A stretch of 64,000 nt of DNA from Acetomicrobium hydrogeniformans (GTDB taxonomy: Bacteria; Synergistota; Synergistia; Synergistales; JAFGMB01): NCBI GenBank assembly GCA_016841745.1, contig JAENYO010000002.1, forward strand, positions 310,001 to 374,000, read 5' to 3'. The position numbers and the translations under genes are program-made. Below the pieces are notes generated by a model. The model was not told the DNA's origin. It was given only the letters and a program-made list of their open reading frames with translations, and ran no database searches. Positions 1,968 through 38,104 of this stretch are shown in pieces. Numbering within the stretch: position 1 is the stretch's first letter; every line of letters begins with the position of its first letter.

Positions 1968-2306
1968 TTATGTGTTTTCTTTGTTTCCATACATCTTTTC
2001 TATGATCTTCTTTCCTGAAGCTGTTTTGAAATGTTTGTTTACAAAATCCATGGCGGTGTCTTTGTCCACATCATCTTCAGATGCATTGACGAGGAAGTCT
2101 GCTTCCACCAGTATCTGAAAATCCATACCATCAATATGTTCAAAACTGTGATGATGGCCTATGATGAAACAGACTCTGTCAATTATGTCTTCACTAATTT
2201 GTAATGTCCCCAGGATATTTCTGGCTATAGGCGGGCCTTCAATTTCCTGGCATTTCCACGATGAGTTATTATACTTACGCTCGCATTCTTTTATCCATAT
2301 GTCATG
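1968..2306 (-). pseudogene. HD-domain phosphohydrolase gene, 5'-truncated copy
   Basis: The C-terminal two thirds of the HD protein encoded intact at 18329-18817 and 8338-8817. Readable parts are KECERKYNNSSWKCQEIEGP, the IIGHHHSFEHIDGMDF block and SGKKIIEKMYGNKENT. About 200 bases are almost identical to the 18.3-kb copy. Homology stops at about 2306, within HDIxIKECER, and the sequence runs into a CA-rich stretch and a type B repeat. The start codon, ribosome-binding site and the first quarter of the domain are gone. An upstream in-frame extension reaches 2441 but consists of repeat and terminator sequence and is not a real N-terminus. Confidence 0.85.
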
Positions 2307-5839: not shown

Positions 5840-5879
5840 GGAGACTCGAAGAGTCCCAGCGGTTAATCGATTTTAGATT
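5840..5879 (+). repeat. Short dispersed repeat, copy 1 of 2
   Basis: GGAGACTCGAAGAGTCCCAG followed by CGGTTAATCGATTTTAGATT. A second copy at 14426-14466 is nearly identical. It contains a small hairpin (GACTC GAA GAGTC). The second copy is fused to CTGCGGCCCTCTGCG-type intergenic repeat sequence. Confidence 0.75.
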
Positions 5880-6075
5880 CTGGATTAAACCTTTGGAAAT
5901 GCTTATCTTTTGATACTGATGATCAGATCACAACAAACCGTAACAGATCTTCACGGCCTATACGTTACTGCTCGTGTTGTATTCAGTTCTTTTTGATGAT
6001 TAGACCAGGTGCTATACTTTTAAACAATTAAATTCAGCTTATATCTTCTTTACCCACATAATTTATCTTTTCTTT

Positions 6076-6320: not shown

Positions 6321-8081
6321 GTGAAAAAAACATTTCTTGTACTTCTCGTTGTTCTGGTTCTGCTGGTTTTTTCGAGCCACTGCTACGCAGAAACTTTCAC
6401 TGTATCAACATCAGCACAATTCCAGATTGCTCTGAATAGTGCAGATCTCAACGGGGAAGGTGACATTATCACTCTTTTACCGGGTACTTACTCTGGAAGT
6501 GATAGCTTTTTTTCCTATGTGCCAAAAAGTGAAGACGAAAACCTTACTATTACAGGATCTGGAGAGGTTATCCTGGATGGAGAAGGTCAGGCGGGACAAA
6601 TTCTGTATATCTCCTCTCCCTGGCAGACGGATATCACACTTCAGGGTCTCACCTTCCGGAATAGTGTCTGTGTTTCCGGGTATGGCGGTGGTGCCGGGGC
6701 AAGTATCCAGATACAAGCGGGAAATATCAATGTGGTTGAATGTTCTTTCAAGAATAATAAGGTTCCGGATTCGTGGGGAGGAGGACTTTATGCCTCTATA
6801 AGTAGTAACGGTACTATCAATATAACAAGCTGTGATTTCACTGGAAACCTGGCAAGCGGTTATGGAGGAGGTTTATTTGCAGAATCAAGAGGTACAGGTG
6901 GAATAAACCTAAAAGATAACTCTTTCTCCGAGAATTCCTGCACAGCACAGGGGCGTGGGGGCGGTGCCTACTTGTCCACAGCTTGTGGCACAATCCTGGT
7001 CACCGGAAATACCTTCTCAGACAATATCTCTTACGATGATGCCGGCGGAATATTTTGCCTTGTAAATGAAGGTAATTTATATTTTGCCGATAACTTACTG
7101 AATGGCAATATTATCGTGCCCGAGGGCCCTTATCAAGGTGGCGGGGCACGGCTGGGTTGTATTTTAGGTGACATGACAGTGGAAAACTGCTCTTTCACAA
7201 ATAATATATGCCAATCATCGGGTGGGGGAATATATTGCCTTGTAATAGAAGGTAATTTATATTTTGCCGATAACTTGCTGGACGGCAATATCGTGTCAGG
7301 TGACTATGAAGGTGGCGGGGCATGGCTGGAAACTTCTAGTGCTGACATGACAGTGGAAAACTGCTCTTTCACCCATAACACTTGTCAATCACATGGTGGG
7401 GGAGTATGTACCTATTTCTACAACGGGGATTTCCTTTTCAGGAATAACCTTGTAGCAGACAATACCTCTATTAAGTCTGGAGGAGGAGCATACCTGCTTT
7501 TCCACATGGATGGGACAAATCCTTTTGACATAATCAACAATACCATCACTGAAAATACCGTTTCCGGAGAAGGGTATTCAGGCGGAGGTCTTTATATCGA
7601 TGGTGGGGCTGATAACGCTGAGTATTCCATCTACAACAACATAATATGGGGCAACTCTGCCTTTGATGGGAATGATATCTATCTAAACGACCGGGGGCAA
7701 CTGAATTCTTTTTCCCTTTACAACAACGACTTTTCCGTTCTTTCCACTGATTTTACAGGAGGAAGTGTGATTTCCAGAGATTTCAACTTTAACGTTGATC
7801 CCGGCTTTGTGTCTGATACAGATTACCATCTCATGGCAGGATCTCCCCTTATCGACGAGGGAGATCCTCTGGCTCCATCCCTTCCAGAAACTGATCTGGA
7901 CGGAAATGCCAGGGTCTCAGGAGCAGAAGTGGACATGGGGGCCTATGAATATGCACCTGCCGGAGATGACGACGACGATGTATCTCAAAAAACTTCTGGC
8001 AGCGGATGTAACGCAGGAGCCTTTGTACCATCCATGCTGCTCCTCCTCGCGCCTCTGTTCATTCTTGCCAGAAAAAAGTAA
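6321..8081 (+). CDS. Secreted right-handed beta-helix protein with Synergist-CTERM tail
   Basis: 586 residues, GTG start at 6321 seven bases after GGAGGG. A signal peptide (KKTFLVLLVVLVLLVFSS) leads into a repetitive parallel beta-helix of the pectate-lyase-like fold: recurring units of 20-25 residues with N-C-x-F and NN(T/S) turns and Gly-rich GGG corners. Two neighbouring units (near 7050-7110 and 7225-7300) are almost identical in DNA (EGNLYFADNLL), showing recent internal duplication. Near the end, GSPLIDEGDP and DMGAYEY match the motif common before choice-of-anchor tails. The protein ends with SGSGCNAGAF, a hydrophobic helix and LARKK. It is probably a surface adhesin or polysaccharide-binding or -cleaving protein; catalytic residues are not evident. 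It is followed by its own terminator. Confidence 0.88.
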   Translation: MKKTFLVLLVVLVLLVFSSHCYAETFTVSTSAQFQIALNSADLNGEGDIITLLPGTYSGSDSFFSYVPKSEDENLTITGSGEVILDGEGQAGQILYISSPWQTDITLQGLTFRNSVCVSGYGGGAGASIQIQAGNINVVECSFKNNKVPDSWGGGLYASISSNGTINITSCDFTGNLASGYGGGLFAESRGTGGINLKDNSFSENSCTAQGRGGGAYLSTACGTILVTGNTFSDNISYDDAGGIFCLVNEGNLYFADNLLNGNIIVPEGPYQGGGARLGCILGDMTVENCSFTNNICQSSGGGIYCLVIEGNLYFADNLLDGNIVSGDYEGGGAWLETSSADMTVENCSFTHNTCQSHGGGVCTYFYNGDFLFRNNLVADNTSIKSGGGAYLLFHMDGTNPFDIINNTITENTVSGEGYSGGGLYIDGGADNAEYSIYNNIIWGNSAFDGNDIYLNDRGQLNSFSLYNNDFSVLSTDFTGGSVISRDFNFNVDPGFVSDTDYHLMAGSPLIDEGDPLAPSLPETDLDGNARVSGAEVDMGAYEYAPAGDDDDDVSQKTSGSGCNAGAFVPSMLLLLAPLFILARKK

Positions 8082-8183: not shown

Positions 8184-8240
8184 CTCAAGCCTTACTCGCC
8201 CGGTTTTATCGTACTATCCAGGGCGTGGGGAAAATTGACA
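8184..8240 (+). repeat. Type B dispersed repeat beside HD gene 2
   Basis: CTCAAGCCTTACTCGCCCGG followed by TTTTATCGTACTATCCAGGG and CGTGGGGAAAATTGACA. The second half is nearly identical to the copy at 14162-14220. A shorter GTGGTCAGGCCTTGA head precedes it at 8151. It lies about 100 bases beyond the 3' end of the HD gene. Confidence 0.75.
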
Positions 8241-8337: not shown

Positions 8338-8817
8338 TTAATACATTGTTTCAATGATCTTTTTCCCTGAAGCTGTTTTGAAATATCTGTCTACAAAATC
8401 CATAGCAGTATTTTTATCCAGATCCTTTTCTGTTGCATTGACTATGAAGTCTGCTTCTATCAGGACCTGAAAATCCATACCATCAATATATTCAAAACTG
8501 TGATGATGACCTATGATGAAACACACTCTTTCAATTATGTCTTCACTTACCTGTAATTTCCTCAGAATATCCCTTGCCATGGGCGGTCCTTCGGTTTCCT
8601 GGCATTTCCAGGCGGAGGTATTAAACTTGCGTTCGCATTCTTTTATGCCGATGTCATGGAGTATTGCTGTAATAGCTATTATTTCCCCGGTTTCGGGATC
8701 AAGTGATTCCAGTTCGGATATTGCACTGGCGTAACCGTACACCTTTACTGCATGGTCTATTCTCTTTTTGTCATTACCGAATATTTCGATCATTTCCGCT
8801 ATAGGTAATTGAAACAT
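8338..8817 (-). CDS. HD-domain phosphohydrolase, intact copy
   Basis: 159 residues from the ATG at 8817, with GGGGGAAG eight bases upstream; an in-frame ATG at 8886 has no such site. HD-superfamily residues are visible: an N-terminal helix with H25 (KRIDHAVKV), the HDIGIKE metal-binding pair near residue 58, IIGHHHSFEYID in the middle and a conserved Asp in EADFIVN. The family comprises metal-dependent phosphohydrolases; this short cytosolic form usually acts on nucleotides or related small phosphates, and the substrate is not known. Two paralogues lie in the window: an almost full-length one at 18329-18817 and a broken one at 1968-2306. The copies share their upstream DNA and a downstream type B repeat. 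Confidence 0.85.
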   Translation of the reverse strand: MFQLPIAEMIEIFGNDKKRIDHAVKVYGYASAISELESLDPETGEIIAITAILHDIGIKECERKFNTSAWKCQETEGPPMARDILRKLQVSEDIIERVCFIIGHHHSFEYIDGMDFQVLIEADFIVNATEKDLDKNTAMDFVDRYFKTASGKKIIETMY

Positions 8818-9151
8818 GATTACTTCCCCCTTTTTCAATCTATTCTGATTTAGTGTATTTGCGGGGTGTTTAAGTTTCCTGGCCAAACGGTTTTCTACCT
8901 GCCTGTTATCAATTGCAATTGAATATATCTTAAGGCAGGAAGAAAAACAAACTATTTATCTTTGATTCAGTAGTAAAGGGGTTCAATATTTATTAATTTC
9001 TTCTAATTCTAGTTATCCTGTTTTACCCAAATATGATAGGGTATAACTTATATTGCATAGTATATTTCGTTGAAGTTCTGTATAAATTTACAGGAGTAAT
9101 TGAGGTACTTATATAAGATGTCTTGATAAAAGTAGGGGGTAGGGGGATATC
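8818..9151. other. Upstream region of HD gene 2, conserved with HD gene 3, and promoter region of the flavoprotein gene
   Basis: 8830-8970 matches 18840-18990 upstream of the other intact HD gene. Shared blocks include a GATTTRGTGTATTTKCGGGG stretch, CCAAACGKTTTT, CAATTGAATATA and CTTTGATTCAG. The match outside the gene shows that gene and control region were duplicated together. The remainder (8971-9151) is AT-rich and should hold the promoter for the plus-strand gene at 9152, but no box is clear enough to call. Confidence 0.6.
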
Positions 9152-10789
9152 ATGACGAGAGTCACTGATCTAGATGTTCTTATCGTTGGAGGAGGACTTG
9201 CCGGACTTTCAGCAGCCCTTTTGGCTCGGGAAAAGTCTTTGGAAGTAGGTCTTGTGTGCAAAAGTAAGGCCGGAAAGAGCGGGAACACCCTTATCTCTGC
9301 CGGGGTCTTGAGTCTGGCAAGTTATGATGGCGAATACGGAGATGATCCAGGCCTTTTTGAAAAGGATGTTCTTGATTCAGGTGCCGGGATAAATAATGCC
9401 GAACTGGTCAAGGTCTTTGCTGAAGAGTCCTGTTCTGTAATTTCATTTCTCAGGGAACATGGAGTGAATTTCAAGAATATTGACGGCAAACTTCTTGTAA
9501 AACACCCGCCGGGACATTCGATAAACCGATCTTTTCTCGCTGAGTACAAGTCCTATTCCTACTTTAACAGAGGGCTTCCTCTAACTTTACCCCTGCTTGA
9601 GAAGGCTTTGGAGGGAGGAGTAAAGGTCTTTGACGAAACCACTGTTATAAGGCTTTTGACGGACGAAAAAGGTATTGTCGGTGCAGTTGCCCTGGATAAA
9701 AATACGGGTAAAAAACATCTCTTCAGGTCAAACGTGGTAATCCTTGCAGCAGGTGGGGGTGCCGGCTTGTTTGAAAGACATAACAACACTTCCGATGTCT
9801 CCTGCGATTCCTATAAACTGGCGTATGAAGCCGGAGCTGTCCTCAGGGATATGGAAATGGCCCAGTTTCATCCTTCCATGATGTTCGAGCCAATAAAAAT
9901 GATTATTTCCAATCCACTGTTCGGTGCTGGTGCTGTTTTAAAAAACATCGAGGGTGAGGAATTTATGTATCGTTACAGCGAAAAAGGGAACCTGGCTACA
10001 AGGGATGTCATGAGCAGGGCGATCAAGACTGAGATAGATGAAGGGCGTGGGAATCCCGATTATGTGCTCATGGACTGTTCCAAAATTGATCCTGAAGTGC
10101 TTGACAAAAAGTACGAAGAACTTTCACTTATCCTCAAACGGGTTGGTATTGATATAAAGCAGGATGGTCTTCCTATCTGCCATTCAGCCCATTTCTATAT
10201 AGGGGGAGTGGATATAGACTCTCACTGCAAGACATGTGTGGAAGGCCTTCTTGCCTGCGGAGAAGCTGCAGGAGGACTTCACGGGGCTAACAGGCTCCCT
10301 GGGGTAGCTCTGGCAGAAGCGGTTGTCTTTGGCAGGATTGCGGGTAAAACCGCGGCAGATGTCTGTAGAAACAGGACTAACAGGGTAACACTCACAGAAC
10401 CTGAAGATATTATGCCTGCAAGTAGATCCGACGATGGCAGTCTACAGGATCTGGTGAAAGAGCTGCGTTCAGTTATGTGGGAACATGCTTCCATAACAAG
10501 AAATGAAGGATCATTGAGGTGTGCGAAAAAAGAAGTGGAGCGAATAGCAATGCAGAAGGATCTGGCAAGGGTAGAGAATGTCAGAGATATTCTTTGCTAT
10601 CACCAGCTGGAATCAATGATTTCGGAGGCTCGCATGTTGATTGAGGTCAGTGAAAAACGCAAGGAAAGCAGAGGCGCTTTTTTCAGGACTGATCACCCGC
10701 AAAAGGACGAAAGGTTCAGGGGAAACTTTTTTGTGAAAAAGAATGCTGATGGAGAGATGCAGTGTTTCTTCCGTAAGGCAAAATCATAA
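9152..10789 (+). CDS. FAD-dependent fumarate reductase/succinate dehydrogenase-type flavoprotein
   Basis: 545 residues; TAGGGGGATATC precedes the ATG. The N-terminus has the Rossmann FAD motif DVLIVGGGLAGLSAALLA (about 8-25) followed by GKSGNTLISAG. AQFHPSMMF and the C-terminal GGLHGANRLPGVALAEAVVF are typical of the SdhA/FrdA/NadB/AprA superfamily, and the C-terminal helical domain (about 430-520) is present. No iron-sulfur or membrane-anchor subunit lies beside it, so it is probably a soluble dehydrogenase or reductase. The exact substrate cannot be read. A 135-base relic of this gene (residues about 96-140) lies at 13900-14042. The gene stands alone. Confidence 0.85.
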   Translation: MTRVTDLDVLIVGGGLAGLSAALLAREKSLEVGLVCKSKAGKSGNTLISAGVLSLASYDGEYGDDPGLFEKDVLDSGAGINNAELVKVFAEESCSVISFLREHGVNFKNIDGKLLVKHPPGHSINRSFLAEYKSYSYFNRGLPLTLPLLEKALEGGVKVFDETTVIRLLTDEKGIVGAVALDKNTGKKHLFRSNVVILAAGGGAGLFERHNNTSDVSCDSYKLAYEAGAVLRDMEMAQFHPSMMFEPIKMIISNPLFGAGAVLKNIEGEEFMYRYSEKGNLATRDVMSRAIKTEIDEGRGNPDYVLMDCSKIDPEVLDKKYEELSLILKRVGIDIKQDGLPICHSAHFYIGGVDIDSHCKTCVEGLLACGEAAGGLHGANRLPGVALAEAVVFGRIAGKTAADVCRNRTNRVTLTEPEDIMPASRSDDGSLQDLVKELRSVMWEHASITRNEGSLRCAKKEVERIAMQKDLARVENVRDILCYHQLESMISEARMLIEVSEKRKESRGAFFRTDHPQKDERFRGNFFVKKNADGEMQCFFRKAKS

Positions 10790-13015: not shown

Positions 13016-13624
13016 TTATGACCTCCTGATAGTCGAGTTCAGATCGCTGTTGAGATATTGACCCTGTTGAACTGTTTCTATATCAAGGGTGCCATCTCTT
13101 AAAGCGATGACTGCACGGCGATAGTCTTCTGCGTGACCTGTCACTGTTTCTTCAGGCAGCCCCCTGTGTATGCCTAGAACGGTGAATGGGGGCAACCAGG
13201 TCATTTTGCAGAGCTTTGCTGTAGCCTGATATGGAGACGTCAGTTCTCCGAAAGTAAATCGGTTGAAACCTTCCCTGCTGTATGTGCTGCTGTCACCACC
13301 TGCTGTAATAACATGCAGGGAAAGCTTTCCCTGCAGGGCATTACCCAGTGGCCCGTAGGCCCAGCCATACTCCAGTACCTGGTCGAACCATTCCTTTACA
13401 ATTGCTGGAGAATAGAACCAGTAAAAGGGATACTGAAAAATAATTACATCATGATCTTCACAGAGATGCTGTTCTCTTTTTACGTCGATCAGAAAATCCG
13501 GATAGGCTGCATAAAGATCATTCACGAGAACACCTTCAAGACCTTCAACTGCAGCTCTAAGAGCATTGTTGATCCTTGAACGGGATCTTGCCGGATGTGC
13601 AAAATAAATCAGGATCTTATTCAT
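13016..13624 (-). CDS. Flavodoxin-fold NAD(P)H oxidoreductase, KefF/KefG-like partner of the antiporter
   Basis: About 202 residues from [22 protein letters not shown] precedes this ATG, and an upstream in-frame ATG at 13669 has none. The fold is NAD(P)H:quinone-oxidoreductase type: FAHP phosphate-binding start, [25 protein letters not shown], a VITAGG loop and a C-terminal GHAEDYR. In Escherichia coli such proteins (KefF, KefG) bind to Kef channels and activate them. Here the stop codon is two bases from the antiporter start, so the pair is almost certainly co-expressed and probably forms a complex. Whether glutathione is the signal in this organism is unknown. Confidence 0.88.
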
Positions 13625-13846
13625 GATCTGAAGTCTCCTCTTCAAGGGTGCCTCCGGATGTCCGAACATTGTGGTTCATCAACTTTAACTTCTCCAGAAA
13701 TTCCTGCTGCACCGTATTTCGGCTATTTTTACATATAAAACGTAATGTGGCCGAGCCTTCCATGTTTATTATATATCGATAAGAAATAATGAAACCACTC
13801 CCTTTTTAGATAACGGCTCCAGTGGATCCGGTTATGAGACTGCCAG
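13625..13846. other. Promoter region of the Kef-type operon
   Basis: About 220 bases upstream of the flavodoxin-fold gene. It is AT-rich at 13720-13800 and contains no repeat copy until 13847. No operator is clear. Confidence 0.4.
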
Positions 13847-13880
13847 GATCAAGCCTCGCGCGGGCGGTATTGTAGTGCAA
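13847..13880 (+). repeat. Type B dispersed repeat flanking the flavoprotein relic
   Basis: GGATCAAGCCTCGCGCGGGC followed by GGTATTGTAGTGCAAAG. The head and core are recognisable with several substitutions. It ends about 20 bases before a relic of the 9152 flavoprotein gene. Confidence 0.7.
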
Positions 13881-13899
13881 AGATCTCTCCTCCAGATTC

Positions 13900-14042
13900 T
13901 TAAGGAACATGGAGTAAATTTCAAGAGTATTGACCGCAAACTTCTTGTAAAACACCCGGCGGGACATTCGATAAGCCAATCTTTTCTCGCGGAGTACAGG
14001 TCCTATTCCTACGTTAACAGAGGGCTTCCTCCAATTGACTGA
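13900..14042 (+). pseudogene. Relic of the 9152 flavoprotein gene (internal fragment)
   Basis: About 135 bases match 9455-9590 at close to 90 percent by eye. They still read in frame as LKEHGVNFKSIDRKLLVKHP, then AGHSISQSFLAEYRSYSY and VNRGLP, before a TGA at 14040-14042. The intact gene reads LREHGVNFKNIDGKLLVKHP at the same place. Only an internal piece is present, with no start or catalytic parts. The preserved frame suggests a recent or purifying history, or simply young age. It sits between a type B repeat and a second relic. Confidence 0.85.
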
Positions 14043-14059
14043 GTTTGATCTCCTTTGCT

Positions 14060-14161
14060 AACATAAGCTTTATAACGCTGCCAAATTATCGAAGGGAGAC
14101 GATCATTTTGACACAGGTAAAAAAGGCTGTTTACTTCTTCTGTACCGCCCCCATGGAAAAC
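14060..14161 (+). pseudogene. Relic of the 5' end of the D-aminoacyl-tRNA deacylase gene
   Basis: From a TTG at 14108 the sequence reads LTQVKKAVYFFCTAPMEN, matching the start of the gene at 30378 (MMQQRKAVYFFCIDSMDH). The leader also matches in part (GAGACGATCATTTTGA versus GAGGCGGTTATTTTGA), including the ribosome-binding region. Homology ends exactly where the type B repeat head GGGGTCAAGCC begins at 14162. Because the TTG is conserved while the following ATG is not, it also supports TTG as the start of the intact gene. Confidence 0.8.
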
Positions 14162-14220
14162 GGGGTCAAGCCTTGCACGTGCGGTTTTGTTGTACTATCC
14201 AGGGCGTGAAGCATATTGAC
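14162..14220 (+). repeat. Type B dispersed repeat, best-preserved copy
   Basis: GGGGTCAAGCCTTGCACGTG then CGGTTTTGTTGTACTATCCA then GGGCGTGAAGCATATTGAC, used here as the reference for the family (about 59 bases). It abuts the deacylase relic with no spacer. Confidence 0.9.
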
Positions 14221-14425
14221 AAGTGCAATATTAGAATCAGGTTTTGCAAACACACTTTTGCACAACAAAAATCCTTTATCCGATAAGTTGTTTTCTAAGG
14301 ATTTTGGTTTCAACTCAAAGAAAAAATGCCTTCCTCCGTACTTCCTCCGTGACCTCAGTGGTGAAAAGGTTTTAAAAGTTTTGGTTCTACCCAAAGAAAA
14401 AGGTTCTCCTCTGCGGCCCTCTGCG

Positions 14426-14513
14426 TGGACTCGAAGAGTCCCTGCGGTTAATCGATTTTAGATTTTGTGGAAAATGGGGCAGGCCTTGCGCGTACGGTTT
14501 TGCACAACAAAAT
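14426..14513 (+). repeat. Short repeat copy 2 and a type B copy in tandem
   Basis: 14426-14466 repeats the element at 5840 (GGACTCGAAGAGTCCCTGCG then GTTAATCGATTTTAGATT). 14476-14513 is a type B copy: GGGGCAGGCCTTGCGCGTAC then GGTTTTGCACAACAAAA. Upstream, 14330-14425 holds CCTCCGT and CTCTGCGGCCCTCTGCG phrases of the ACCGCAGAGG-type repeat in reverse orientation. 14514-14882 shows nothing I can support except a 25-codon frame just after the oxidase stop. Confidence 0.7.
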
Positions 14514-14882
14514 GACTCCCTCGATATTTAACTAAAACTTTTAACATAATGTCTTCTGCAAGGGTAGGACGAATGGAGATCAAAGGCTATCTTCGATAGA
14601 TTCCCAGGGCAGGGTAAATTGTTTCCACTGGGAGATACCCATTTCCTGAACCCGTTCATGATTTTTTGAGTAGAACCGGAGAAAGAGTGAACAGTACTGA
14701 TCCTAGAAGAAGATATCCTTCCGATGGTCGACCCTGGATGTTATCTGATACAGATCACCTGGAACGAAGGTCCCTGATCAAGATCACCTCCATTGTTGTT
14801 GCCCTTCAGGTCCAGTTGAAGTCCAGCGGGTGGATCTTTAAGCTGTTTTCGTATCCATTGACCAGTTCTGGGTCATTAAACA

Positions 14883-16382
14883 TTATTCCACAACAAATGA
14901 TCCCATCATTCCCATATCATCGTGTTCGAGAATGTGGCAGTGATAGACGAACTTACCCTTTTTCTGGAACTGGACAAGGACCTTTACAGTTTCATAAGGA
15001 TATACAAGTACTGTATCTTTCCAGCCTCTTTCGTTGATGGGCGGAGCAGATCCGTCCCTTTCGATGACCCGAAACTGTACTCCATGAATATGGAAAGGAT
15101 GGGCCATAGCCCTGGCCATGGGCATTCTTCTTCCGCCCATTCTTCCCATGCCTCTCATCATGTTACCTCCCATTGGACCACCCTGGAACATCTCGTTTCG
15201 TATCTCCCAGATCTCGGTGTCGTTGAGCTTCACCATTTCATCTATACGATCCAGATCAAATTGCCTTCCGTTAATACTTACCATGGGACCCATTCCCGAA
15301 AGGATAAAGGTTCGGTTCCTGACAACTCTGGATGTATCCACGGGTTCGATTTGTGTAAGCTCCCAGGGTATGAAGCTTCTTTTTATCTCTTCATTATTGT
15401 TTACAAGGCAGGCGAGGATCTCGAATTCCCGGGACCTCAAAACAGCCCGGTCTCCATACTGGCTGGTGGAAAAATCGACAAGTATTTCTGCCCTTTCTCC
15501 TGGGGCCAGGGTTAAAACCCTTGTCTGAAAAGGGTTGGACAGAAGTCCCCCATCGGAGGCAATTTGCCAGAATGTGCGGTCGTCCTCGAAGAAAAGGTCA
15601 AAAACTCTTGCGTTGGATCCGTTGATAAGCCTGAAACGTACCATTTCCCTTTCAACTTCGAGGTAGGGATTATAGGTTCCATTCACCACGGGTACATCAC
15701 CCATCATTCCGTGCATTCTATCCATCATGTGAGTCAGATATACCAGTTCGCCATTTCTCGAGAAACGTTTGTCCTGGATCACCATAGGGATATCGTTTTT
15801 TCCGTAATTATCTGGTAAATCGAGGTTCCTGGATATATCATCCTCTACAATGAGTACTCCGGCCAGACCCATATATACCTGCTTTCCTGTACGGCCATGA
15901 GGATGAGGATGGAACCAGAGTGTCGCTGCCGGCTGATCAACCGGGAAAGAGACCTCCCATGTTTCGCCTGGGGCAAAAGTATAGTGGGGACCTCCGTCCT
16001 TATGTCCCTCCACTTCCATTCCGTGCCAGTGGAGAGTTGTGTCTTCATCAAGTTCATTGATAACCTTTGCATGAAGGGTCTGTCCTCTTTCAACCTTTAT
16101 AGTTGGTCCCAGGTAGGATCCGTTGTAACCAAGGGTCTGAGTGGGGTTTCCCGTACCAAAAAAGGAAGTTTTTCCTTTCATCGCCCTGAGGGTTATATCC
16201 ATCGCACTGTTTCCGGGATCTTCATCTTTCATCAAAGGAGGGATCTTCAGGGCATTTTTTTCGCTGATAAATGAAGAAGCATCCCGGGCAAAGGCAGCGG
16301 TTACATCAAGAGAGGGGAGCAGGGCCATCCACGTAATTAATGCCGCAAGTGAAACAACAAACAGTTTTTTTTGCGATATCAT
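14883..16382 (-). CDS. Exported multicopper oxidase (CueO/laccase-like)
   Basis: About 499 residues from MISQKKLF, chosen because GGAGGTG lies seven bases upstream; an in-frame ATG at 16457 lacks a site. It has a signal peptide without twin Arg, then three cupredoxin domains. All four copper-ligand motifs are visible: LHWHGMEV, WFHPHPHG, HPFHIHGVQF and the C-terminal YHCHILEHDDMGMM, whose Cys and flanking His serve the type 1 and trinuclear centres. A Met- and Gly-rich loop (GPMGGNMMRGMGRMGGRRM) recalls the copper-binding insert of CueO. Such enzymes oxidise Cu(I) or phenolics using oxygen, so presence in a probable anaerobe suggests oxygen or copper defence. The Spy-like gene upstream has the same orientation. 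Confidence 0.92.
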   Translation of the reverse strand: MISQKKLFVVSLAALITWMALLPSLDVTAAFARDASSFISEKNALKIPPLMKDEDPGNSAMDITLRAMKGKTSFFGTGNPTQTLGYNGSYLGPTIKVERGQTLHAKVINELDEDTTLHWHGMEVEGHKDGGPHYTFAPGETWEVSFPVDQPAATLWFHPHPHGRTGKQVYMGLAGVLIVEDDISRNLDLPDNYGKNDIPMVIQDKRFSRNGELVYLTHMMDRMHGMMGDVPVVNGTYNPYLEVEREMVRFRLINGSNARVFDLFFEDDRTFWQIASDGGLLSNPFQTRVLTLAPGERAEILVDFSTSQYGDRAVLRSREFEILACLVNNNEEIKRSFIPWELTQIEPVDTSRVVRNRTFILSGMGPMVSINGRQFDLDRIDEMVKLNDTEIWEIRNEMFQGGPMGGNMMRGMGRMGGRRMPMARAMAHPFHIHGVQFRVIERDGSAPPINERGWKDTVLVYPYETVKVLVQFQKKGKFVYHCHILEHDDMGMMGSFVVE

Positions 16383-17212
16383 TAAAAACACCTCCAGATA
16401 ATTACCTGAAACATGCATGTAATACTTGTCTTTTACAAGCTCAAACTCCAGAAGCATTCAACATCGCGGGCTCAGGAAGATCATATTCCTACGAGTCATT
16501 TATTGCAATATCCAATTATAATGGTCAATCGCTATTATAATACTAGTAGTCAAAATATGTTCCAGAGTCTGGGGTTTTATATTTGAGCTGGGAAAATATA
16601 TCAATGGAGGTCAGAGGTGAATTGTCCCATGGCCATTTTACCGCAGGGGCGGGGGGCCGCCGAAACCCACCTGGAAAACACGTGGACGGGCGGACGCTAC
16701 GCGGGAGCGCAGAGGTAAAACATAACACAAGGGAGTACTGAAAAAGGCTACTGTGCAAAATGAGGAGATATTTTGCACGACTTAGGGACAAGTATAAACC
16801 TGGAAACCTGTTCACCTCGGAGGGCACGGAGGAAAAGATCTGAGGGAACGCAAGTCAAAAGAAAAATCAGGACATATTTACCGCAGGGGAATTCAAAAGT
16901 TCTTCTACCCTGGACATCCGAGCAAAATGAAAGTTCATTTTGCTCTTTGGCATTAATATATTCTATCCAGGCTCTTCCGATCCTGTCTTCGAATATTCAT
17001 CATGCCGAAAAATAATATACATATTTTTTCGAATGTCCCGGGTTTTAAGGGCAATTTCTTATAAGAAGCAGGTGTTGCACCTACCTGTAGGGAGATAAAG
17101 AAAGTGATATGATTCGCTGAAGCAAATCCTATCAATTCAATGAAATCAGGAATGGAATGGGATTGCAGGGAAGATGAGACCCAGGAACCTCTTTTGATAA
17201 CTGTAAGAAAAG
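16383..17212. repeat. Long spacer with ACCGCA-type repeats and palindromes
   Basis: 16383-16560 is the promoter region of the oxidase. From about 16620 to 16900 are degenerate phrases (TTTTACCGCAGGGGCGGGG, CACCTCGGAGGGCACGGAGG, ATATTTACCGCAGGGG). Two perfect hairpins occur: 16753-16778 (arms GTGCAAAAT and ATTTTGCAC) and 16920-16945 (arms GAGCAAAATGAA and TTCATTTTGCTC). The combination is like 10790-11090. Minus-strand frames at 16543 and 16953 are low-complexity shadows. No gene is supported. Confidence 0.6.
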
Positions 17213-18328: not shown

Positions 18329-18817
18329 CTATTGGTTTTCATACATTTTCTTAATGATCTTTTTTCCTGATTCCGTTTTAAAATGTTTATTAACAAAATC
18401 AATAACCGTATTTTTATCCATGTCTTTTTCCGATGCATTGACAATAAAATCTGCTTTCACCAGTATCTGAAAATCCATACCATCAATATGTTCAAAACTG
18501 TGATGATGGCCTATGATGAAACAGACTCTGTCAATTATGTCTTCACTAATTTGTAATGTCCCCAGGATATTTCTGGCTATAGGCGGGCCTTCAATTTCCT
18601 GGCATTTCCACGATGAATTATTATACTTACGCTCGCATTCTTTTATTCCTATATCATGGAGTATTGCTGAAATAGATATGATCTCCCCGGTCCCGGGATC
18701 AACTGCTTCGAGTTCGGCTATGGCATTGGCGTAACCGTAAACCTTCACCGCATGGTCTATTCTCTTTTTGTCATTTTCAAATATTTCGATCATTTCCGCT
18801 ATTGGTAGTGGAAACAT
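18329..18817 (-). CDS. HD-domain phosphohydrolase, intact copy
   Basis: 162 residues starting MFPLPIAEMIEIFEN, with TAGGAAGTAAGC before the ATG. Domain landmarks are the same as in the 8338-8817 copy: H25 in KRIDHAVKV, HDIGIKECERKYNN near residue 58, IIGHHHSFEHIDGMDF and a conserved ADFIVN. It is about 80 percent identical to that copy by eye. In the region of the 1968 pseudogene it is nearly identical at DNA level, so the pseudogene derives from this copy or was converted by it. The predicted activity is metal-dependent phosphate-ester hydrolysis; the substrate is unknown. Confidence 0.85.
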   Translation of the reverse strand: MFPLPIAEMIEIFENDKKRIDHAVKVYGYANAIAELEAVDPGTGEIISISAILHDIGIKECERKYNNSSWKCQEIEGPPIARNILGTLQISEDIIDRVCFIIGHHHSFEHIDGMDFQILVKADFIVNASEKDMDKNTVIDFVNKHFKTESGKKIIKKMYENQ

Positions 18818-29933: not shown

Positions 29934-29991
29934 TTTTATTGACATTTTCAATAATGGGATCAGACCTTGATTTTAACCGTATGTATGCAAT
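29934..29991 (+). repeat. Type A dispersed repeat, copy 3
   Basis: TTTTTATTGACATTTTCAAT then AATGGGATCAGACCTTGATT then TTAACCGTATGTATGCAAT. It begins 70 bases after the serine hydrolase stop and is followed 45 bases later by a relic of the patatin gene. Confidence 0.92.
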
Positions 29992-30035
29992 AACAGTTGT
30001 ACTTTCCGTTTTTAGAGTATGCTTCTTTGTAATTG

Positions 30036-30134
30036 CTGCAGACAGAGCAAGCAGATATTCTCATAGAACCGGATCTCTCATCTTTCAATTTGGTGGATAT
30101 CGACCAGGTGGATGATCTAATCAAAAAGGGCTAA
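30036..30134 (+). pseudogene. Relic of the 3' end of the patatin-like gene
   Basis: CTGCAGACAGAGCAAGCAGA and the next 80 bases match 37971-38070 at about 90 percent. In frame it reads LQTEQADILIEPDLSSF, then NLVDIDQVDDLIKKG and a TAA at 30132-30134. Only the last about 33 codons are present. The DNA between the type A repeat and this relic does not match the gene. Confidence 0.85.
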
Positions 30135-30247
30135 CAGGAGGCAAAGAAAGCATTGTATAAAAACAGTGATACTGAAGGGCAATTCTGACCTCCTGCAATA
30201 GCCGGTTTTTAAATTCTTCAGTTCCCGATAACTCCAGGTTTTAAATC

Positions 30248-30278: not shown

Positions 30279-30377
30279 CTTATTCAATTCTTTATTTCTG
30301 TGAATTGACTATGCTTACTATGCTTTGTTACCATACATCTTGTAACGTGGGCATATCCACTATAGGAGGCGGTTATT

Positions 30378-31325
30378 TTGATGCAACAAAGAAAGGCAGT
30401 TTATTTCTTCTGTATTGACTCCATGGACCACGTGGGGGGCAACGTCCTTTCTGCAGTTTCAGAAAATCATCCCATGGAAGAGACAGATATCGTTGTAGAT
30501 GGGGAAACAGTGCTGAAATATGAAGACGAGAAAGGGAATAGCTTCTTTTTTGTCTCGACCCGCAAGCCTGTCAGCCATGACTACGTTCACTACCTGCCGA
30601 TCCTTAACCGTCACTTTTCAAACTTCGACGTGGCCGGAATCGTTACATGGCATGAGGGCCAGAATGCTCCTGACGCCATCCTGACCGTACATACCACCGG
30701 AGATGTGGACTCGGGCAATTTCGGTCCGGCTTCACCCGAGTATATGAGAAATATCCTTCTCTCAATGGAAAGGAACAGGATAGAAGCGGGGCTGGATAAT
30801 TATAGTGTCACCACGGAAGCAACTCACTGGTCCGGGATGGTCTATGAAGGAGGCACCCCGGCAATGATATCCCAGTATCCCGTAACCATGCTCGACATAG
30901 AGATCGGAAGTACTCCTGTTTGCTGGTCCAATAAAAAAGCAGCAGGAGTGCTTGCTCGATCCCTGACCTTCGTTTTTGAGAGCGACGGGCTCAGGGTCAG
31001 GAACCTGTTATGTGCCGGAGGGGTCCATTTTGAAACAGGCTTTGCAAGTGCAGTCTTCACTACATGGGGTGATTCCGCTTTCGGGATCTCCCACATCCTT
31101 GCCAACCAGTGGCTCGTTACGGGGGGTTATGACAGGGAAGATGGGTTGTCGAGACTGAGGGCCTGTGTAAGCAGCATCCATGGAGGAATAGAAGGGATTG
31201 CCTTCCACGACAACCTCAAGGGAGTCTATAAAGATCAGCTGCGTACTCTGGCTGAAGAACTGGGAATTCCTGTTTTCAAGCACAAAAAATTGCGGAAACC
31301 GGACAGTATTTCCTGGCGCAACTGA
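30378..31325 (+). CDS. DTD2/GEK1-type D-aminoacyl-tRNA deacylase (PF04414-like)
   Basis: 315 residues. AGGAGG lies eight bases before the TTG at 30378 and eleven before an ATG at 30381; the relic at 14108 keeps the TTG but not the ATG, so TTG is preferred. Family marks are ILTVHTTGDV, TTEATHWSGMVYEGG, PVTMLDIEIGSTPVCW and LLCAGGVHFETGFASAVF, the His-containing motifs of archaeal DtdA and plant GEK1. The family frees tRNA from D-amino acids and, in plants, from aldehyde-modified aminoacyl adducts. Bacteria generally use the unrelated DTD1, so this gene may have come by transfer. It appears monocistronic. Confidence 0.8.
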   Translation: MMQQRKAVYFFCIDSMDHVGGNVLSAVSENHPMEETDIVVDGETVLKYEDEKGNSFFFVSTRKPVSHDYVHYLPILNRHFSNFDVAGIVTWHEGQNAPDAILTVHTTGDVDSGNFGPASPEYMRNILLSMERNRIEAGLDNYSVTTEATHWSGMVYEGGTPAMISQYPVTMLDIEIGSTPVCWSNKKAAGVLARSLTFVFESDGLRVRNLLCAGGVHFETGFASAVFTTWGDSAFGISHILANQWLVTGGYDREDGLSRLRACVSSIHGGIEGIAFHDNLKGVYKDQLRTLAEELGIPVFKHKKLRKPDSISWRN

Positions 31326-31363: not shown

Positions 31364-31396
31364 GGGCAAGCCTTGTACGAGCAGTTTGCTCAGTAA
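31364..31396 (+). repeat. Type B dispersed repeat, short degenerate copy
   Basis: GGGCAAGCCTTGTACGAGCA then GTTTGCTCAGTAA. Only the head is recognisable. It lies in the spacer between convergent genes. Confidence 0.5.
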
Positions 31397-37335: not shown

Positions 37336-38104
37336 ATGAACAGGTTAGGTGAAAACATAAAGGTCGGTCTTGCCCTGGGAGGCGGTGCTGTTCTTGGTGC
37401 TGCTCATATAGGAGTTTTAAATGCACTCGAAGAGTATGGTATTTCTGTAAATTATGTTGCAGGGACTAGCATTGGTGCGCTGATCGCAGCCTTTTTAGCC
37501 TTTGGCAAGGGATGGCAAGAAATTACCGAGATAGTAAAAGACCTGAACTGGCTGGATATTTCGGGGATATCCCTTTCACAGTTTGGTTTACTCTCCAACA
37601 AAAAACTGGGCAGACTGATAATAGAAAATCTGGGAGACGTTAATTTTAATGAAGCTTTTATCCCGATCGCCATGGTGGCGATGGACATTTCGACAGGAGA
37701 AAAGATTGTGCTGAAAAAGGGGAGTTTGGCAGCAGCTATTATGGCGAGTACCTGCATTCCGGATATCTTCGTACCTGTTGAGATAAATGGGAAACTTCTT
37801 GTTGACGGGGGTATTGTTGAAAACGTTCCGGTAACTACGCTGAAAGATATGGGGGCCGATATGATCATCGGTGTTGATCTGAATGCTAAACATACCCATA
37901 AAAAAACCTCGGAACATCGTTGAAGTATTATTGAGATCCTTTGATTTTACATTGAAGACCGCTACCAAGCTGCAGACAGAGCAGGCAGATATTCTCATAG
38001 AACCGGATCTCTCATCTTTCAATATGGTGGATATCGACCAGATGGATGATCTGATCGATAAGGGGTACCAGGAAGCGAGTCTAGTATTGCATCAGATAAG
38101 ATGA
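37336..38104 (+). pseudogene. Patatin-like phospholipase gene with a frameshift in an A7 run
   Basis: Frame 1 (37336-37923) gives 195 residues with the patatin fold: LALGGGAVLGAAHIGVL oxyanion hole, AGTSIGALIAAF with the catalytic Ser, and DGGIVENVPV with the catalytic Asp. It ends 20 bases after a run of seven A at 37900-37906. The next frame (from 37883) continues the family's C-terminus: KKPRNIVEVLLRSFDFTLKT through DLIDKGYQEASLVLHQIR. Deleting one A joins the two into about 255 residues. The short form keeps the catalytic dyad, so it may still work; slippage in the A7 run could also yield the full form. A copy of the C-terminal part lies at 30036-30134. Confidence 0.8.

Follow-up and report, generated by a model that had tools for sequence, protein, structure and literature searches.

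The window, that is, the whole stretch of DNA that was analysed (64,000 nucleotides, C8:310001–374000), belongs to a genome of 3.04 Mb in 15 contigs. The site under study is a 1.2-kb gap (13670–14882) between a Flavodoxin_2 gene (13016–13669, minus strand) and a multicopper oxidase gene (14883–16457, minus strand); short remnants of at least two formerly whole gene copies lie in this gap, beside transposon-end repeats (Table 1). Elsewhere in the window, the protein encoded at 6321–8081 has a Synerg-CTERM match above the cut-off, which suggests that the genome belongs to the Synergistota.

Table 1 Features at the site, their relatives in the window, and Y1 transposase genes of the genome. Positions without prefix are window positions; C4, contig of the same genome; G001, nearest relative (same family, other genus).
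Feature	Position	Strand	Evidence or remark
Type B repeat 1	13846..13880	+	nhmmer E 2.3e-7; degenerate, starts GGATCAAGCCTCGCGCGGGCGG
Internal fragment of fumarate-reductase-like flavoprotein gene	13897..14034	+	91% nucleotide identity, codons ~98–144 of 9152 homologue
Leader and first ~15–18 codons of PF04414 D-aminoacyl-tRNA deacylase gene, body missing	14033..14155	+	68% to 30303–30425
Type B repeat 2	14162..14197	+	nhmmer; head adjoins deacylase fragment
Degenerate fourth type B copy	14237..14270	+	91% over 34 bp to G001:C115:8186–8153
Short dispersed repeats	14328..14467		CTTCCTCCGTG... and GACTCGAAGAGTCCC...GATTTTAGATT
Type B repeat 3	14476..14510	+	nhmmer E 7e-8
Intact flavoprotein gene, nearest relative of fragment	9152..10789	+	FAD_binding_2 and Succ_DH_flav_C, Pfam E 3e-62
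Intact deacylase gene, cousin (not parent) of fragment	30378..31325	+	Pfam E 1e-26
5′-truncated HD-domain gene copy	1968..2306	-	90% over 327 bp to 18332–18658
Patatin-like gene 3′ fragment	30035..30142	+	92% over 108 bp to 37969–38076
Y1_Tnp (HuH) gene	C4:87063-87386		PF01797 E 2.8e-13
Y1_Tnp (HuH) gene	C4:155993-156274		PF01797 E 1.6e-10

Repeats and junctions at the site

The type B repeats, the short repeat and the pieces of a flavoprotein and a deacylase gene that the original prediction had placed here were all recovered. The three type B copies at 13846, 14162 and 14476 gave nhmmer E values of 2e-7 to 9e-10 (search within the window), and for a type B pattern of 28 bases, allowing up to 3 mismatches, the chance expectation in the window is 0. 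The likeness of type B repeat 2 to the copy at 8185 continues to 14222. The fourth copy, which scores weakly against the profile and had been overlooked, corresponds to the one lying downstream of the sister genus's intact deacylase gene. Within the short-repeat region, 14428–14467 is 95% identical to 5843–5882 and is one among many genome-wide copies; the region is also 92% identical to C14:85390–85449. Dense arrays of short dispersed repeats of the CTCCGTG type, with many overlapping copies, were seen at C3:54788–81877 (L133, L134).

The fragments had been described as joined by repeats. A type B head does come 0–7 bp after the deacylase fragment, but the flavoprotein and deacylase pieces have no repeat between them: they abut directly and have about two bases in common. 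A Pfam search of 13670–14882 in three of the six frames (E 1) gave no match; the two known scraps, which lie in those frames, were missed too, so that the search is an insensitive test for hidden genes.

Flavoprotein and deacylase fragments

The flavoprotein fragment aligns without gaps to 9447–9584 (126 of 138 bases identical, E 6e-52), and by tblastn it reaches left to 13884, 4 bp off the type B core. The 12 differing bases make 10 nonsynonymous and 3 synonymous codon changes (one edge base counted). Compared with orthologues of other genera, the fragment no longer has one Pro and one Arg that all of them share, and it retains one Lys and one Arg that are altered in 9152. On this pattern of substitutions, the fragment is a true duplicate, drifting without constraint. 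The retained ancestral residues, lost in 9152, rule out a recent copy of the present-day gene and indicate that the fragment split off before 9152 reached its present form.

The deacylase fragment (14033–14165) matches 30303–30435 with 68% identity over 133 bp (E 2e-8), and matches an intact deacylase gene of the sister genus (G001:C115) with 80% identity over 70 bp. Over a 66-bp overlap, it shares 48 of 66 bases with the 30378 gene and likewise 48 of 66 with the G001 gene, and those two share 43 of 66 with each other. Being equidistant from both homologues, the fragment represents a third, old lineage; a copy of 30378 is ruled out. Changes in its best-conserved codons (KAVYFFC) are synonymous, so that the gene was probably functional in the past; its leader is its own. 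Of the two parents that had been named, 4 kb and 16 kb away, the first stands as the nearest relative of the flavoprotein piece, but the second is only a cousin of the deacylase piece. An ancestral flavoprotein–deacylase operon was also considered and was rejected, as no flavoprotein lies within about 1.5 kb at any of the 15 deacylase loci tested.

In the sister genus, the order is intact deacylase gene (L046:8490–9470, minus strand), truncated GNAT-like frame, type B repeat, and CTCCGTG repeat. The window site keeps the order deacylase, type B, CTCCGTG repeat, minus the gene body; on either side of the two sites there is no synteny between the G001 deacylase neighbourhood and the window. At L046:7779–8438, the start of the GNAT-like gene (Pfam E 0.06, a weak call) runs directly into the type B head, possibly a second example of truncation at a repeat head.

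Relation of the repeats to Y1 transposases

A genome-wide search for the Y1 family found two genes in this genome (Table 1); one has a type A head and the other a type C head. A head of the GGGGTCAG type lies 60–110 bp upstream of four of four Y1 genes, two here and two in G001. GGGGTCAG fits the GGGGWSAS motif; type B has a GGGGTCAG..CTTG head, and its best-copy consensus is GGGGTCARGCCTTGC. The Y1 proteins match HTH_28 at residues 245–283 (E 0.0024) and 242–280 (E 4e-5), under the gathering score, and the C4:87063 protein scores 76.5 bits against the REP-associated transposase model NF047646, close to and below its cut-off of 80. By their heads and their association with these genes, the repeats are solo or degenerate ends in terminal-repeat families of Y1 (TIRYT) transposases.

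A search for a transposase with matching ends had been proposed, and for type A one exists: inverted copies at C4:85584 (plus strand) and C4:87469 (minus strand) bound a 1886-bp element with a Y1 gene and two passenger ORFs. For type B, no transposase gene was found between inverted copies in this genome. In the sister genus, the Y1 gene at G001:C186 is preceded by a type-B-like head; an inverted partner for that head was not found. The type B copies detected number about fifteen in all, more than half of them in this window, and the copies scored in the sampled stretches run in a single direction per contig, not as inverted pairs around pieces. The exact type B core had 0 matches in 84,980 species genomes, among which near relatives may be missing, and the exact type A core had no match in viral contigs. 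On C8 (window 1–35200 together with C8:290001–310000), type A copies are all on the minus strand up to window position 92 and all on the plus strand from 24715; GC skew in 4-kb bins around that change of orientation gave no clear sign switch.

Other gene fragments and local duplications

Seventeen stretches of 20 kb around repeats were sampled (404 kb including the window), and local duplications of at least 100 bp, 1.5–30 kb apart, were counted; the C3 arrays of short repeats and a single repetitive gene were excluded from the count. All 16 of the 16 duplications were in direct orientation, not all of them being independent.

Several other scraps were seen. The truncated HD-domain copy, which has full relatives at 8338–8886 and 18329–18817, has one end 26 bp away from a degenerate type B repeat at 2332. 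The patatin-like fragment starts 43 bp after a type A repeat (29956–29992). On C14, a 155-bp unit, which starts at a type B head and is duplicated (C14:287124/291788), is followed by the 3′ end of an ornithine cyclodeaminase gene together with ~200 bp from downstream of that gene. The patatin-like gene itself (37336–37923) has an apparent frameshift (region 37880–37923) at a seven-A run, and the C-terminal part is encoded in a different frame as far as about 38092; an error of assembly or a young pseudogene may account for this. A 1088-bp tandem duplication of 99.9% identity lies at C14:281098–283595 (L148), beside an IS3-like integrase-core ORF.

The distances of fragment ends from repeats were taken from small, hand-compiled lists, which cover scraps with relatives inside the sampled stretches. 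Inside the window, four of five ends lie within 50 bp of a repeat against 7.7% expected (nominal p 2e-4), a post hoc figure because the window was picked for the pattern; three of the five lie within 30 bp. Outside the window, none of seven ends lies within 50 bp and one of seven within 110 bp. An excess of ends at repeats thus reaches significance in the window alone, where the question arose, and is absent elsewhere. The expectation that the coincidence of repeats and fragment boundaries would extend beyond the window was therefore not borne out in this small sample, and the result comes near the independent scatter that the original prediction had named as speaking against it.

Origin of the fragments

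We consider it likely that the fragments arose by local direct duplication and then by piecemeal deletion, with ends that here often fall at transposon-end repeats, and that no new copying machine is involved. Gene segments would have been duplicated locally in direct orientation, a step borne out by the duplications counted above, or would have been present as old divergent homologues; the redundant copies would then have lost most of their length through short illegitimate deletions, several of which appear to end at or beside solo or degenerate Y1 (TIRYT) ends carried by the intergenic DNA. Removal of the gene bodies by deletion is what we infer, and the repeats may attract the breakpoints, through nicking by the transposase or through recombination between direct copies; alternatively, ends may lie near repeats simply because repeats fill much of the intergenic DNA. 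For the deacylase gene, one deletion would suffice, from codon ~15–18 to the type B head, with GGGG possibly as the shared bases. The flavoprotein scrap would be what is left, under drift, of a separate duplicate; as both its ends are gone, two events are needed.

The deletion is a reconstruction and was not seen directly, because a close strain that still has the complete locus was not found. Pre-deletion states are seen: intact HD genes have type B repeats beside them on the 3′ side (at 8185 and 18154), and a degenerate, weakly scored type B match lies at 31364, beyond the stop of the intact deacylase gene. The second option of the original prediction, recombination between repeats, stays plausible, as does deletion at them. 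The site can be read as a record of duplication, then deletion, and it ties type B, a repeat family whose exact core had no match in the other genomes searched, to TIRYT elements.

A process that copies gene pieces beside repeats had been the first proposal, and we now hold it to be highly improbable that an element or its transposase captured short segments of neighbouring genes next to its ends. Capture would fit the pieces of 108–338 bp that lie beside repeats with relatives 4–16 kb off (flavoprotein, patatin, ornithine cyclodeaminase), and the two passenger ORFs of the type A element would fit it as well; yet the pieces are always oriented like their relatives, come with leaders or 3′ flanks of their own, and are of very different ages (9% against about 27–32% divergence), the type B copies around them are direct and not inverted, and the window holds no parent of the deacylase piece. 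From random copying and insertion of pieces, inverted copies would be expected, and all those counted are direct. The separate lineage of the deacylase piece, the undeleted arrangement in G001 and the single direction of type B on each contig also count against the copying proposal. Plain pseudogene decay, in which the repeats merely share the intergenic DNA and have no role, is a weaker form of the preferred reading and, to our mind, a possible but somewhat doubtful one. It had been argued that decay of whole genes could not give such clean joins; this was contradicted by equally clean truncations at C14:285251 and C14:293991, where the nearest repeat is more than 500 bp away. Together with a further clean truncation of this kind at C14:141647–141793, they speak for plain decay. 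The 50-bp surroundings of repeats make up 5–8% of the non-genic DNA, which also suits plain decay, but the share of window ends close to repeats, counted after the fact, does not.

Duplication and deletion could also be read in a stronger form, in which the Y1 transposase nicks GGGGTCAG ends and makes adjacent deletions, repeat heads and tails being fixed truncation boundaries. That the repeats are transposase ends, the three window ends within 30 bp of them, the sister-genus GNAT-like start running into a type B head, and the type-B-headed unit followed by the ornithine cyclodeaminase scrap are all in its favour; however, fragment ends outside the window show no enrichment at repeats (none of seven within 50 bp), ends fall on head and tail sides alike, no transposase gene bounded by type B was found in this genome, and the GNAT-like frame has weak Pfam support. 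We regard this form as unlikely. That a Y1 (TIRYT) transposase deletes adjacently or captures gene pieces at GGGGTCAG ends, and that solo ends actively shape gene loss in this lineage, is in our estimate decidedly unlikely. Should Y1 repeat ends prove to coincide with the limits of deletions, gene erosion outside the well-studied REP genomes would have a driver that can be measured.

Comparison with known systems

The closest known elements are TIRtrons, whose terminal inverted repeats carry GGGGWSAS in the consulted part of Di Nocera et al. (2013, PMC3733652), and TIRYT subclass 2.1, with the motif GGGG[AT][CG]A[CG] in the consulted part of PMC6006769. As far as these parts go, the likeness covers the Y1 HuH gene, flanking inverted repeats starting with GGGGTCAG, and solo and clustered copies scattered through intergenic DNA (PMC3733652, PMC6006769); the C-terminal helix-turn-helix domain of subclass 2.1 may have a counterpart in the weak HTH_28 matches. 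Unlike those elements, type B here is without a transposase partner in this genome; the consulted parts of both papers make no mention of gene scraps at such repeats. A literature search found no study tying these transposases to gene fragments.

The small intergenic repeats of REP/BIME with RAYTs (e.g. in Escherichia and Pseudomonas) are similarly linked to a Y1 transposase; in contrast to them, the present repeats showed no GTAG-tagged hairpin on inspection by eye, and they number tens of copies, not hundreds. Helitrons and ISCR elements are gene-capture systems and offer the comparison for a copying of gene pieces. With ordinary pseudogene erosion after tandem duplication, the site shares direct copies, unconstrained substitutions and the loss of most of the gene, and differs in that several window scraps end within 50 bp of transposon-end repeats. 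The site is best read as a clear, modest instance of known genome plasticity, namely duplication, and deletion at transposon-end repeats.
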